This document shows positions 4,742 to 56,547 of a stretch of DNA of 64,000 nt, piece after piece. Positions within the stretch are counted from its first letter, which is position 1. Each line of letters opens with the position of its first letter. This DNA comes from Methylacidiphilum infernorum V4 (GTDB lineage Bacteria; Verrucomicrobiota; Verrucomicrobiia; Methylacidiphilales; Methylacidiphilaceae). The stretch lies in NCBI RefSeq assembly GCF_000019665.1, contig NC_010794.1:2170001-2234000 (forward strand), in the 5' to 3' direction. Position numbers and translations under genes: made by a program. Below the pieces are notes generated by a model. The model did not search any database and was not told where the DNA came from. It saw only the letters and a list, made by a program, of their open reading frames with translations.

Positions 4742-5560
4742 TGCCTACCCACCTCTGCAAATGGACTCTCCCGCTATATTGAGGACTACATCGCATTTTT
4801 TCAAAACTTGCTTCATAATTAAAATAAGCTCCATCTAGCTCCATTCTGTAGATCTGCTTAGAAATGTTCTCCGGATTTCCTGCATCCCTTATGTCCTTAC
4901 AACTAAAGAAATTTCTGGGAGAATGGCATAGGCTTTGGCAACATTGAGCAATCGCCATCACCCACCGTGGAAGCCTTCTTCACCTCCTTCGATCTAACGG
5001 TCGGTTTGTCCTTTTGGGAAGAGTTTAGAGGCTACACTATTGAGAGAAACGGTCCTGAGTTTTTAAACAGATTTTAAAGCTGAAAGGGGATCTTTTTTCT
5101 ACAAGGACATTAGAAAAAATATTTTAAACAATTTTCTAGAACTACACCATCTTAAAGAGCGGATGCTTTGGCAACTACCGTTTCTCTGAATATCTAATCC
5201 AGTTTGCACTTGATGGCCCTACCGAATCTTGCATTTTGTTTTAACCCGGTGGAAAGCAAGGCTTTTTAACCTTCAGCACAACTTGCAAGATGGGCATTGT
5301 CCCCTGGAGAGGTGTATCTGAAAAATGTTTCATAAGTTAAATTTGAAAGTTGAAATAGGATTGTGCGAAACCTAGATGTATTCGGACACCGAGACCTAAT
5401 TGAGCGTTCCAATCCTATCCACAGATGAGTTCTGAGCTGCACCCGCCAACACCCGGAGTGGAAGGAAGCGGTTCGCAGGGGGCTTTTGAGCGACGATCTC
5501 CTCCCGCTCCCATCCATCGTTATATCCCTGGCCAATACGATGAACAGGTTATAAGACACA

Positions 5561-6034
5561 ATGGATAGGTTAGAGGTGGTCAACATCGAGGCTAAGAAAG
5601 AAGGGAAAAGGGATACTAAGGAACTGGGAGAGCCGATCGCATCGCTTGGGAAAGAACTATAGGCCGCAGGAAAAGAAAGGAACCAGGATTCCAAGGTCTA
5701 ATGGGACAACATCGATGGTTTGAAGGAAGCCTCCATGGGGGGTCTCGTTGCGTCCCACCCCGACAAGTTCGTGGACGAATTTATCGAGGATGCCCAAATT
5801 GTGCGTAAGTCCGAATTGAACAAAAATACTATTCGGCATGCAAGCGTTTCCACGGAAGAGGCGGAGAGAAGGCCAGGAACCTCGACTTTTATTTCCGAGG
5901 AATGGGTGGGGGCAAAAGTGTCCACAGCGCGTCCGAGGTTTGCTGGAATGTCGAAGAACGTGACGTCAGGCCTGCCTCCGAAAGGTCCGAGATCCAGGAA
6001 AGGGCAACCCGGGAAATCCCAGGTATGCACATGA
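5561..6034 (+). pseudogene. Decayed reading frame with two in-frame stops
   Basis: One frame reads from an ATG at 5561 to a stop at 6032-6034. It is interrupted only by stops near 5660 and 5699. The composition is protein-like: a charged N-terminal part (EAKKEGKRDTKELGEPIASL) and, after the stops, GGLVASHPDKFVDEFIEDAQ. No family was recognised and no ribosome-binding site is evident. It could also be chance coding in non-coding DNA. Confidence 0.3.
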
Positions 6035-6170
6035 CCCAGCCCTTCTGCTCGTCATCGGCATGGAAGCAACGCCGGAGGCAGTCGAACTGGCAGCCTGGAA
6101 TGGCCTCTGGGCAGTCGTGGACGGGAAGGTCATGGTCGAGCACGAAACCCTCGCAGACACAGAGCGGTAA
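5964..6170 (+). pseudogene. Possible protein fragment in a second frame
   Basis: In the frame beginning at 5964, after a stop, there is an uninterrupted stretch ending with a TAA at 6171. It contains the regular hydrophobic segment DPALLLVIGMEATPEAVELA followed by AWNGLWAVVDGKVMVEHETL, which looks like real protein. There is no start codon of good quality. It overlaps the previous frame, so at least one of the two is not coding; a frameshift joining them is possible. Confidence 0.25.
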
Positions 6171-6425
6171 GCTCACCGCTTCCATTTCCCTTTCCCAGAA
6201 CATGCACCAGTAGTTCTCCTTGGTCATGTTTTTATGTCCTGACCTTGCTGTTTTTCTGGCTTGTCACCATTTTACTCCATTCTATTGGTAAATTTTTGCT
6301 TCTTGACTTTCTTCCAATTCATTTTGCCATCACAACCTTTTCATCCTTCACTAGCTGTCGCGTTTTCAAGTAAAGATAGGACTATAGGATCGTAAAAAGC
6401 GCTCCATAAGACTTACCCCTTACTA

Positions 6426-6522
6426 ATTGGCCCCGGGACAAAGCCAAGTTCGGGCTTTACCTAGCCCGGTGGCACCCCGGGCCTTGCGGTCAAGAGGAGA
6501 GCCTTCCCCTCCAGGGGCCAAT
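6426..6522. ncRNA. Candidate structured RNA, multi-branch fold
   Basis: A 9-bp closing stem pairs 6426-6434 (ATTGGCCCC) with 6514-6522 (GGGGCCAAT). Inside are consecutive hairpins: 6440-6445 AAAGCC with 6453-6458 GGCTTT; 6464-6469 GCCCGG with 6477-6482 CCGGGC; and 6496-6499 GGAG with 6509-6512 CTCC. The segment is much richer in GC than the surrounding intergenic DNA. Strand is undetermined. I do not recognise the family; it lacks the boxes shared by the three TnpB-type RNAs of this window. Confidence 0.4.
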
Positions 6523-7134
6523 GATACCTCAAGACTCACGGCCAATACCTGCAAATAGGCATGAAGGAGCATAAACGCTGAGGGTTTAATCCTGAAGTTT
6601 CATTCAACTCCACTCCCTCTTATTTGAGCAGGATAATCATTTATATCTTCGTTTTAAACTAGGTCGATTATTTCCTTATTTCCTTTTAATAGGCTTTAAG
6701 TAATGGAGAGTCCACTTTAAGGTTGAATTCAAAATGGCTACGAAAATGAACCAACAAGGAGTTCCTATTCGTCCAAGGACCTTTTAGTTGCAGCGTCCGG
6801 CCTCAAAGAAGCACGGGTAAAAGGGAACCAGCCAGGTTAACCGGCTTTGCCCCCTTCTCAGGGGATCGTTCCACAGGACGATCTGAAGGATGGAGTTCTT
6901 GATGGGATTGAGTGGCTGAAACAAGCAGAGGCTAGCCGCTGCCTTCCAAAGAATAAAAATGGGGGAAGGGAAAGGTGGAAGAAAATGCAACCAAGGCTTT
7001 TCAGGTAAGCGGTTGCGACTTGGACCCAAAAAAAGCGATTAAGATCAAGGCAATCCCCCAAGCAAAAGTTTTACGGCTTTTAAAAAAGCTTGCCCGGCAC
7101 CCTTCAGCGGTCCCATCCAAAAAGAACTTTTGGT

Positions 7135-7677
7135 TTAAGATAGTTGTTCTAGGAATTCCCCGAGCCTTTCTTTCAAAACTTTAACAATCTTTTCCTCTAA
7201 AAAGGGAAAAGGGGATGCTTTTCTTTGATCCCAAAGCCACAACAGTTTTTTACATCCTTCGGCGATCACCGCCTGGTGATCAAAAGCTAGCGGGGGCAGG
7301 CGATTCAAAGAAAACAAACCCGCTTCCTTGGCATCATCCCCTGCATCCACCTTAAGCTCTTCAAGAGGTCTCAAAGCCAGGTAAGCGATGCTGATCACCC
7401 TTCCCCGGGGATCTCTTCCGGGCTTACCAAAAGCCCCCACCTGGACCATCCTGTCAAGCTCCAGCCTTGTTTCTTCTTTAAGCTCCCGCAGGGCCGCCTC
7501 TTCCAAGTCCTCGTTTTCTTCCACAAATCCCCCGGGCAATGCCCACATTCCTTCAAAGGGCGGATTTTTCCTCCGTATCAACACGACAAAGAGTTCTTCT
7601 TGGTTAAAACCGATCACCACGCTGTCCGTCGTGACGGCATACCGAGGAATCTCTGGACGCAGTCCCACGTTTTTCAT
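7135..7677 (-). CDS. Nudix hydrolase (ADP-ribose pyrophosphatase-like)
   Basis: A 180-aa Nudix protein. The Nudix box is complete at about residues 49-71, starting GGFVEENEDLEEAALRELKE and continuing with ET (pattern GX5EX7REUXEE), preceded by the FEGMWALPGGF strand typical of the ADP-ribose pyrophosphatase / NrtR-like branch. It should hydrolyse a nucleoside diphosphate linked to another moiety; ADP-ribose or a related NAD metabolite is the likeliest but unproven substrate. No C-terminal winged-helix domain clear enough to call it an NrtR regulator is seen. AAGGA precedes the ATG by a few bases. Confidence 0.8.
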   Translation of the reverse strand: MKNVGLRPEIPRYAVTTDSVVIGFNQEELFVVLIRRKNPPFEGMWALPGGFVEENEDLEEAALRELKEETRLELDRMVQVGAFGKPGRDPRGRVISIAYLALRPLEELKVDAGDDAKEAGLFSLNRLPPLAFDHQAVIAEGCKKLLWLWDQRKASPFPFLEEKIVKVLKERLGEFLEQLS

Positions 7678-27129: not shown

Positions 27130-27774
27130 GTGAATATTGCAGACATAAAACGCAAATTGGTAAGTATCCACGAAGCTGCCGAGTTCCTTGGTGTCTGTGC
27201 CCAAACGCTGAGGCGTTGGGAACGGGAAGGCAAGCTCATTCCCGATGAGCGCACCCCTGGTGGGCGGCGACGCTATGACCTTGCCAGGTTGCGGCCTGGG
27301 CAATTCCATTCACCCGAATCGGAACGGCTGACCATCGCCTACGCTAGAGTGTCTAGTCATGACCAAAAGGATGATCTGGAAAGGCAGAAGCAGGTTCTGG
27401 AACTCTACTGCGCCCGGCAAGGATGGAAGTTCGAGGTCATCTCGGACCTGGGTTCGGGCATGAACTATTACAAGAAGGGACTGAAGAAGCTGCTCGATGC
27501 CGTCCTCGGCGGAAAAGTCGGCAGGTTGGTTATCACGCACAAGGACCGGCTGCTACGCTTCGGTGCGGAGCTTGTGTTTGCCATCTGCGAGGCCAAGGGC
27601 GTCGAGGTCGTGATCCTCAACCAAGGCGAAGACACGACCTTCGAGGAAGACTTGGCGAAAGACGTGTTGGAGATCATCACGGTCTTCAGCGCCCGGCTCT
27701 ATGGCAGCCGCTCGCGCAAGAATCAGAAGCTGCTCGACGGTGTAAAGGCCGCCGTGGAGGCTGTGCAATGCTGA
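27130..27774 (+). CDS. tnpA: IS607-family serine recombinase (transposase)
   Basis: A 214-aa protein with an N-terminal MerR-like helix-turn-helix (SIHEAAEFLGVCAQTLRRWE, then the Pro-Gly-Gly-Arg-Arg turn) followed by a serine-recombinase catalytic domain. The nucleophile is the Ser of IAYARVSSHDQKDDLERQ near residue 75, and VITHKDRLLRFG plus the YGSRSRKN tail match IS607 TnpA. The start is GTG. The last codons overlap tnpB as ATGCTGA, so translation is probably coupled. Confidence 0.93.
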   Translation: MNIADIKRKLVSIHEAAEFLGVCAQTLRRWEREGKLIPDERTPGGRRRYDLARLRPGQFHSPESERLTIAYARVSSHDQKDDLERQKQVLELYCARQGWKFEVISDLGSGMNYYKKGLKKLLDAVLGGKVGRLVITHKDRLLRFGAELVFAICEAKGVEVVILNQGEDTTFEEDLAKDVLEIITVFSARLYGSRSRKNQKLLDGVKAAVEAVQC

Positions 27775-28985
27775 TTTCCCACAAAATCGCCCTTGATCCG
27801 AATAACGTGCAGGCGACCTATTTCGCAAAAGCTGCGGGCACGGCACGCTTTGCTTACAACTGGGCTCTGGAGCGGTGGCAAAAGCAGTACGAGGCATGGA
27901 AGGCCAACAAGAGATTGCCCAAGCCATCGCAATATTCTTTGCGCCGCCAGCTCAACGCCATCAAGCGCGAGCAGTTCCCCTGGATGCTGGAAGTCACCAA
28001 GTGCGCGCCGCAGATGGCGATTATTCAGCTGGGGCAGGCGTTTGCGAACTTCTTCGCGGGTCGAGCGCGGTATCCACAATTTCGCAAGAAGGGCCGCGAC
28101 GACCGTTTCACCCTTACCAACGACCAGTTCGATCTCGACGGCTCACGCATACGCATCCCGAATCTTGGCTGGGTGCGCATGCGCGAGCCGTTGCGCTTCA
28201 CCGGCAAGATCATGTCGGCCACGGTCTCCCGGGTGGCCGACCGATGGTTCGTCAGCATTACAGTAGACGCTCCCGATCTGTGCCATCACAAGGCCGAGAA
28301 CCAAGGCATTGTGGGTGTGGACTTGGGCGTGTCGGCGCTGGCGACGCTCTCGACTGGGGAAAAGGTGCCTGGCCCAAAGCCACACAAGGTGCGGCTAGGC
28401 CGCTTGCGCAGGCTCTCGCGGAGCCTCTCGCGCAAGGCTAAGGGATCGGCCAACCGGCGAAAGGCCAAGGTAAAGCTGGCTAGGCTGCACGCCCGAATCG
28501 CCAATAGCCGCATGGACGCCCTGCACAAGCTTATGACAAGGCTAACGCGTCGGTTTTCGCTCATCGGCGTCGAGGACCTGAACGTGCGTGGCATGATGGG
28601 CAACCGGCGTCTTGCCCGTTCCATCGCAGCCGGCGGTTTCTTCGAGTTCCGGCGGCAGCTGGAGTACAAGGCCGCGATGTGGGGAAGCGTGGTGGTGGTT
28701 GCGGACCGGTTCTACGCCAGTAGCAAGACGTGTTCGGCGTGCGGGTACGAGTTGGAAACCTTGCCGCTGTCGGTGCGGGAGTGGACTTGTCCGGCCTGCG
28801 GTGCGATCCACGACCGCGACTGGAACGCGGCAAAAAATCTTGAGCGCCTAGCGCTCGCTACGGCGAGTTCCGCCGGAAGTTACGCCTGTGGAGAGGAAGG
28901 CTCTGGCTTGGCGTTTTGCGCCAAGCGAAACCGCCTCGACGAAGCAGGAAGTCAGCCTTGTTCCTGTTTGAGCAGGAATGAGTAA
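27768..28985 (+). CDS. tnpB: RNA-guided nuclease TnpB (IS607-associated)
   Basis: A 405-aa TnpB with a full RuvC nuclease: first Asp in GIVGVDLGVSALATLS (about residue 185), Glu in LIGVEDLNVRGMM, and last Asp in AIHDRDWNAAKNL, with a zinc ribbon CSACG...CPACG in between. The N-terminal domain (helix-turn-helix-like, AYNWALERWQKQYEAW) is intact, so the nuclease appears functional. The ATG at 27768 overlaps the tnpA stop; the frame is open further upstream but that is antisense-like shadow of tnpA. The 3' end of the gene runs into its guide-RNA segment. Confidence 0.95.
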   Translation: MLISHKIALDPNNVQATYFAKAAGTARFAYNWALERWQKQYEAWKANKRLPKPSQYSLRRQLNAIKREQFPWMLEVTKCAPQMAIIQLGQAFANFFAGRARYPQFRKKGRDDRFTLTNDQFDLDGSRIRIPNLGWVRMREPLRFTGKIMSATVSRVADRWFVSITVDAPDLCHHKAENQGIVGVDLGVSALATLSTGEKVPGPKPHKVRLGRLRRLSRSLSRKAKGSANRRKAKVKLARLHARIANSRMDALHKLMTRLTRRFSLIGVEDLNVRGMMGNRRLARSIAAGGFFEFRRQLEYKAAMWGSVVVVADRFYASSKTCSACGYELETLPLSVREWTCPACGAIHDRDWNAAKNLERLALATASSAGSYACGEEGSGLAFCAKRNRLDEAGSQPCSCLSRNE

Positions 28986-28993
28986 GTCTGACG
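28858..28993 (+). ncRNA. TnpB guide (omega) RNA and IS607 right end
   Basis: Overlaps the 3' end of tnpB, as omega RNAs do. Boxes CGCCTGTGGAGAGGAAGG and CCTCGACGAAGCAGGAA flank a perfect 8-bp hairpin pairing 28906-28913 GCTTGGCG with 28919-28926 CGCCAAGC. A terminal hairpin TTCCTG/CAGGAA follows (28961-28966 with 28973-28978). Compared with 21391-21506 and 55798-55936, the central stem changes sequence on both sides yet still pairs, supporting a conserved RNA fold. The guide would be the flanking bases after 28993. Confidence 0.75.
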
Positions 28994-29058
28994 GAACGGT
29001 TGATTCACCAATAAAAATAGCCGAATATTTCAAGAAAAATGCGGTCTTTTTGCCTCTT

Positions 29059-55696: not shown

Positions 55697-56547
55697 GCAA
55701 TGGTGGTATAGCTCAAAGAAGTAAAACTGGCTTTGAACAGTTGATTTTTGAGTTGATCTTTTTTTATCTTATCTCCTATTGGCCTCCCTAAACGGCCCTA
55801 CGGCAAGTTCCTTCCGGAAGGCAGGCCTGCGGGAGAGGAAGGCTCCGGCCAGGGGTGCACGCGCCGGCTGCACCCGCCTCAATGAAGCAGGAACTGGGCT
55901 TTGTTCCTGTTTGAGCAGCAATGAGCCAGTCTGACGTAGCGACGCAACAAGGATGAAGCCTTTTTGACAGCCGTTTTTCTTAGCCCTTGAGGGGGAACCG
56001 CTCATGGCCTCTGATTGGAGGGAATTCTTAGAGCCGGCCAACTCCTTGCTTTGCACCCAGCACTTTTCCTTGAGCAACGAGGCGGCTGTATAATGGTGAT
56101 GAGGGAAAGGGCGATGAGCACAGAACGGTTGGCAACCCCAACAGCCCAACCCGTGGCAAGCCCCTAGCAAGCCATTGTAGAGCTTCATCCTCAATAGTTC
56201 TCAGCCGTAGCCCAAAAAGACACACCGGGCCGATACGAATGGGCTCGGCAAGACCCTTCGGGGCGGGAAGAAAACGGAACACATACCAGCATATGCTGTT
56301 GATAAAAGAAAAAGAATCGATAGACCTTGGGGAAGGATAACCTTCCTTTCGTTTGGACCTTGCCGATTAAAGGGAAATTCCAGGGAGCTTTGAGTATCAT
56401 CCCCCTACCTCGCAAAACGAATTAGGGGAGCATTTGAAGGGCTTTCACAGCCTCAAGTTTAGGGATCTTGTATCGCGTTCAGGGTTAAAGAAAATTCTAC
56501 CCGAAAGAGGAGAGAAGGCTCTATCCTACTGAAACGATTGTTCGCGG
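55697..56547. other. Gene-free region holding an orphan IS607-type end
   Basis: About 850 bases without an intact gene. It contains the orphan omega-RNA-like segment at 55798-55936. On the minus strand 56415-56028 shows two decayed frames with protein-like stretches (for example APWNFPLIGKVQTKGRLSF and LRLRTIEDEALQWLARGL); no family was recognised. It is likely a scar of mobile-element insertion and decay. Confidence 0.5.
55798..55936 (+). ncRNA. Orphan IS607-type right end / omega-RNA-like segment
   Basis: Closely matches the IS607 right end at 28858-28993: CTACGGC-AGTTCC, GGAGAGGAAGGCTC, CGCCTC..GAAGCAGGAA, and TTGTTCCTGTTTGAGCAG, ending in GTCTGACG. The central stem differs but still pairs perfectly, 55853-55859 GGGTGCA with 55869-55875 TGCACCC. 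The terminal hairpin has a one-base mismatch (GCAGCAA instead of GCAGGAA). No tnpA or tnpB remains beside it. Confidence 0.7.

Follow-up and report, generated by a model that had tools for sequence, protein, structure and literature searches.

The minus strand of positions 6399-6539 of the DNA stretch analyzed here (the window, 64,000 nucleotides of the Methylacidiphilum infernorum V4 genome) very probably represents a decayed right end of an IS607-family transposon that bears a TnpB guide RNA (reRNA, or omegaRNA) scaffold, most likely belonging to a TnpB-less mini-element of ~220 bp (about 6399-6617). The copy is a fossil relative of a known system of RNA-guided DNA cutters and not a new riboswitch or ribozyme.

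Identification of an IS607 Right End

With positions 6300-6700 as query, the whole genome (2,287,145 bases) yielded a second place, 78% identical over 65 query bases, and one further matching place was found when the genome of a congener was searched with the same sequence. In local comparisons, 6399-6539 was 66% identical over 139 nt to the tnpB end in its own genome and 69% identical over 119 nt to that of the congener. At both similar places the upstream sequence, in the minus-strand reading, was recognized by eye as coding for the zinc-ribbon part at the C-terminus of TnpB, and for the place in the own genome this identity was confirmed by tblastn. The own-genome tnpB end, when used as query, hit 12 places including 6399-6539, and a search for the TnpB zinc-ribbon domain PF07282 hit 19. 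The 3' ends of 13 copies, with the 6399-6539 copy left out, were aligned for the covariance model (CM) R1, which has a structure of 33 pairs. Within the 64-kb window, R1 matched the minus strand of 6399-6539, including 6426-6522, over its full length (1-139) with 34.1 bits and an E-value of 1.7e-6 (6.4e-5 at genome scale). A score of 34 bits is weak, since good copies reach 100-155 bits; the fourth R1 match in the window (9.4 bits, E 2.1) is at chance level. An exact search of viral contigs with the letters of the 6399-6539 copy itself found nothing.

An alignment of orthologous intergenic regions was sought via the neighboring NUDIX gene, which is present in four of four congeners, yet within 1.5 kb beyond it no blastn match to the window below position 7134 was found. 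From 7134 onwards the window is syntenic, and positions 4750-7134 lack blastn matches in the flanks of the congeners' NUDIX locus; judging by these comparisons, 4750-7134 is apparently a decayed, lineage-specific region.

Conserved Structure of the reRNA Family

R1 found 36 places in the own genome (E up to 0.1), and at E up to 0.01 all 13 genomes of the host's family had a match. Of 145 genomes drawn from the phylum and searched with stricter filters, five gave a hit at E up to 1e-6, and these five all belong to the host's family. Two of the reRNA copies in the own genome lie on the same strand about 0.9 kb apart (G000:C1:356371-356508 and 357425-357550). A scan of named genomes yielded 122 TnpB relatives, of which 80, mostly from Gammaproteobacteria and Burkholderiales, were kept, and R1 found the same RNA at 74 of these 80 independent TnpB loci. 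Among the named copies (75, 74 of them distinct), 86.8% of the cells were paired as opposed to 33.8-42.2% with partners slid, doubly changed cells numbered 217 against a shuffle mean of 69.2, and compensatory changes occurred in all eight pairs of the long hairpin. In the 37 rows of own-genome copies, which include one place twice, 81.7% of the cells were paired and 62 were doubly changed versus 29.7 in shuffles; the figures from both alignments are biased towards the model, to which the alignments were fitted. The family fold is supported by compensatory changes. Its helix Pc competes with P1 of RAGATH-18 for one shared 5' strand, and both helices are kept in most copies.

The initial annotation had described, at 6426-6522, a 9-bp closing stem with three hairpins in 97 bases. 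As a description of this stretch it is accurate: the 9-bp arms ATTGGCCCC (6426-6434) and GGGGCCAAT (6514-6522) are exactly complementary, 13-nt arms are 92% complementary, and ViennaRNA predicts the closing stem and three internal hairpins for either strand. The folding energies of -46.5 kcal/mol (plus strand) and -50.9 kcal/mol (minus strand) correspond to z-scores of -1.95 and -2.08 relative to dinucleotide shuffles, of which 7/200 and 5/200, respectively, folded at least as stably. The segment was the most stable among the 97-nt tiles tested (1318 non-overlapping tiles from both strands of the window), one of which reached -46.5 and none -50.9 kcal/mol. Most of the stability is due to GC content, with only a modest surplus beyond base composition. 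Nor are perfect 9-bp inverted repeats within 97 nt unusual: the window has 70 of them. The annotation had also recognized no known family, and Rfam agrees: no match reached the gathering score in the whole window, and permissive thresholds gave only chance-level matches in 6200-6800 (CRISPR-DR28, E 5.2; a Tetrahymena snoRNA, E 8.1).

The relatives do not share the drawn fold. Of the 33 pairs that it has on the minus strand, the conserved structure shares only 5, all in one hairpin (P4), and it is only this P4-like AAAGCC/GGCTTT hairpin that 6426-6522 has in common with its relatives. In the relatives, drawn-type pairs were canonical in 620 of 1111 cells, compared to 946 of 1154 for pairs of the conserved structure; in the drawn closing stem, the four outermost pairs form in 0 to 11 of the 36 other rows. 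The drawn closing stem is thus refuted by a condition that the annotation itself had named, since substitutions in relatives break it; the 9-bp stem represents an alternative pairing specific to this lineage, in GC-rich, drifted sequence. The drawn fold is not the ancestral one, and the RNA is encoded on the minus strand. A stand-alone junction RNA at 6426-6522 was rejected as a candidate; the minus strand is a diverged IS607 right end with TnpB guide RNA. Of the classes suggested for such a junction RNA, the element-associated RNA agrees with the descent from an IS607 reRNA, and riboswitch and catalytic RNA are unsupported, with no match to an Rfam family.

Intact Copies in the Window and Relation to Known Systems

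The window also harbors an intact IS607 element (27.1-29.0 kb, plus strand), in which TnpA and TnpB are followed by the same 3' end. The TnpA serine recombinase is encoded at 27130-27774 (NF033518 transpos_IS607, 216.5 bits, cutoff 110; PF00239, PF00376) and the RNA-guided endonuclease TnpB at 27768-28985 (NF040570 guided_TnpB, 311.5 bits, cutoff 100; PF01385, PF07282, PF12323). An intact reRNA with the right end, at 28863-28999, overlaps the 3' end of tnpB; its R1 score of 155 bits is that of a training sequence. A TnpB-less mini-element consisting of left end, reRNA, and right end is located at 55733-55942 (plus strand), with 121.5 bits for R1 at 55803-55942, likewise a training sequence. 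The left end of locus L040 matches 55733-55802 (G000:C1:2225733-2225802).

According to PMC11061315, RAGATH-18 RNAs are guides of IS607 TnpB nucleases and 64% of them adjoin IS607 TnpB; solo RAGATH-18 copies are therefore at least implied in print. The RAGATH-18 RNA (Rfam RF03064), as outlined there, resembles the present family in overlapping the 3' end of tnpB and the right end, and the core of the intact copy, CCUGUGGAG...GAAGCAGGAA, aligns over the whole model. In contrast, the RAGATH-18 score of the intact copy at 28863-28999 (28.6 bits, E 0.0012) is below the gathering score of 44.9, and the 6399-6539 copy has no match (none in 6200-6800 at E up to 10). With E up to 0.5 allowed, three of 20 loci matched RAGATH-18, none of them reaching the cut-off, and two congener copies in this set scored like the intact copy. 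Of 12 named TnpB loci, none matched at E up to 0.05. Since the intact copy covers the whole model yet scores below gathering, the family is labeled here as IS607 reRNA, RAGATH-18-like, and not as RAGATH-18.

The reRNA of the IS607 element ISXfa1 has been sequenced and is described in PMC10711439 as about 150 nt long and crossing the right transposon end, with a scaffold that takes in the right-flanking base; the same source places the IS607 crossover at GG. The present family resembles it in these features. IS607-family transposons with GG target, as described in PMC6188088, have the serine recombinase TnpA, GG at their ends, and no target duplication. The intact element in the window is of this type, whereas the 6399-6539 copy lacks both genes. 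The latter is an ordinary but instructive fossil, a decayed addition to the already known IS607 reRNAs. Judging from its relatives and the literature, the former element would have had its two ends joined at GG dinucleotides by an IS607 serine recombinase provided in trans. Its RNA, read out through the right end, would have given TnpB a scaffold and, behind it, a guide that was a copy of flanking DNA.

Probable Left End, Decay, and Alternative Explanations

With no match to TnpA or TnpB in the 1.5 kb upstream of 6399-6539 (tblastn, E up to 0.01), the copy has to be named a decayed remnant and not a working member of the IS607-family reRNAs. A probable transposon left end abuts the reRNA directly at 6540-6617 (minus strand), with no tnpA or tnpB between; the small palindromes noted in the initial annotation as continuing to about 6600 are located inside this probable left end. 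In local alignments to the left ends of the loci L064, L094, and L095, none of 1000 shuffles was as good in each case, and 1, 3, and 5 of 1276 window tiles, respectively, reached the same scores, although these three left ends are related to one another. Comparisons with the left ends of L065, L057, and the intact element and with the consensus left end of solo copies gave nothing beyond shuffles. The left-end likeness directly upstream, together with the missing TnpA and TnpB matches, favors the reading that 6399-6539 was probably part of a TnpB-less mini-element of about 220 bp (about 6399-6617). Alternatively, a full IS607 element may have decayed in place, its reRNA end surviving ordinary deletion without ever having moved as a mini-element. 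This scenario is possible but rather unlikely. It is in line with the moderate strength of the left-end evidence and with locus L059 of the same genome, one of the closest relatives, where a full-length but decayed tnpB has a 3' end of this kind, but it has to accommodate an upstream region devoid of TnpB and TnpA matches and a left-end-like stretch adjoining the reRNA core in the same layout as in copies with a common left-end motif. In 20 of the 36 own-genome copies, the one at 6399-6539 not being among them, this motif (TTGAACAGTTGATTAAT, up to 5 substitutions) occurs no more than 110 nt upstream of the RNA, compared to 25 of 1162 control tiles.

The copy at 6399-6539 is probably inert today, a conclusion drawn from few lost features, as it has no TnpB, has lost the terminal GG, and has a broken RAGATH-18-like closing helix. 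Two of five pairs are left in this helix (P1), and 12 of the 19 RAGATH-like core pairs are kept versus 19 of 19 in the TnpB-bearing loci L037, L038, and L041. At the right-end terminus (6399-6418, minus strand; copies compared in the CM alignment), the consensus GAGTAAGTCTGACGGAACGG is replaced by GGGTAAGTCTTATGGAGCGC, and the resulting GC for GG, which removes the final base of the crossover dinucleotide, is taken as decay. Of the 33 consensus pairs, 24 are kept. When the 25 changes in paired columns were placed at random, a mean of 17.3 pairs was retained and 30 of 5000 runs reached 24; with the changes kept in place and the bases redrawn, the mean was 19.5 and 64 of 5000 runs reached 24. 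In both comparisons the family majority served as a stand-in for the true ancestor and the alignment was fitted to the model. Since more pairs are kept than random changes leave, the ancestors of the copy were probably under selection for the fold. The same surplus of pairs, with an intact TnpB in the window, is what could be cited for a TnpB-less guide RNA gene that is still functional and guides in trans the TnpB at 27.8-29.0 kb, but given the damaged P1 and core, the altered terminus, and the low CM score this is very unlikely. Even more improbable is that 6426-6522 is an intergenic structured RNA unrelated to IS607 (a riboswitch, ribozyme, or regulatory RNA). Its strong local fold, at the top of the 1318 tiles, would fit such an RNA, but the z-scores are only about -2, Rfam has no match, relatives do not keep the drawn closing stem, a weak test revealed no sigma-70-like promoter on either strand of 6200-7140, and 6399-6539 is clearly homologous to IS607 ends.

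TnpB-Less Mini-Elements with Complete Guide RNAs

With an E-value limit of 0.001, a common left end was found 18 times in the own genome and three times in G007, a genome of another genus; it is present in two of the 13 genomes of the host's family. All 21 of these left ends adjoin an reRNA, 20 within 2 bases and one, a partial-query match, within 31; none was seen with tnpA or tnpB in either genome. The 18 own-genome places and the three in G007 (G007:C1:1369853, 1551778, and 1840351; L120, L122, and L124) are TnpB-less mini-IS607s measuring about 210-230 bp, each with a complete guide RNA. In a tblastn sample of 31 copies (30 with 1.5 kb flanks and the 6399-6539 copy), four had a TnpB-length match upstream and two had remnants of about 45 residues; the others had no match or only 16-30 residues overlapping the RNA, apart from a 48-residue match further off at L044.

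The solo copies (19, the twentieth, L062, being left out) kept 523 of 627 pairs, whereas 2000 neutral runs averaged 437.2 and never exceeded 468; pairing of the solo RNAs is thus retained better than neutral drift predicts. Against this, paired and unpaired columns were equally diverged (13.6% each), and the five pairs with a double change were not above shuffles (385 of 500 reached five), although the 19 cells with a double change were above all 500 shuffles. By this pattern, the solo RNAs may either be used in trans or stem from several deletions, each derived from living elements.

Bacterial MITE-like non-autonomous elements are short internal-deletion derivatives that keep both ends and reach many copies. 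The mini-IS607s are likewise short, numerous, and equipped with both ends, but differ in keeping a whole guide RNA and in that IS607 elements have no terminal inverted repeats. Another family of repeated deletion derivatives is suggested by the loci L014-L020, seven truncated TnpB zinc-ribbon domains in open frames of 164-170 aa with similar scores. At L047:1257-1486 (G000:C1 about 1396796-1397025, minus strand), a HEARO RNA (IscB-type omegaRNA, 104.3 bits) follows a TnpB-type mini-element of the same orientation, starting 14 bases past its right end. An exact-pattern search of the named genomes and viral contigs, from which own-genome records may be excluded, found nothing for the mini-element left end. 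In the literature as available, mostly without subscription papers, we found no TnpB-less IS607 elements carrying a guide RNA, which does not prove their absence.

The mini-IS607 family is of more interest than the 6399-6539 copy, whose identification as a fossil accounts for a puzzling intergenic fold. With about twenty mini-elements that have only the guide RNA, its pairing kept better than under neutral drift, next to few intact TnpB genes of this type, the genome offers a natural test of TnpB guide use in trans. We tentatively propose, as a rather doubtful possibility, that this fossil stems from a larger population of TnpB-less mini-IS607s with complete, structure-conserving guide RNAs, which may load their own guides onto the TnpB of a few intact elements and use the TnpA of the latter. 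If so, the mini-elements would be parasites or partners that spread guide RNAs without a nuclease gene.
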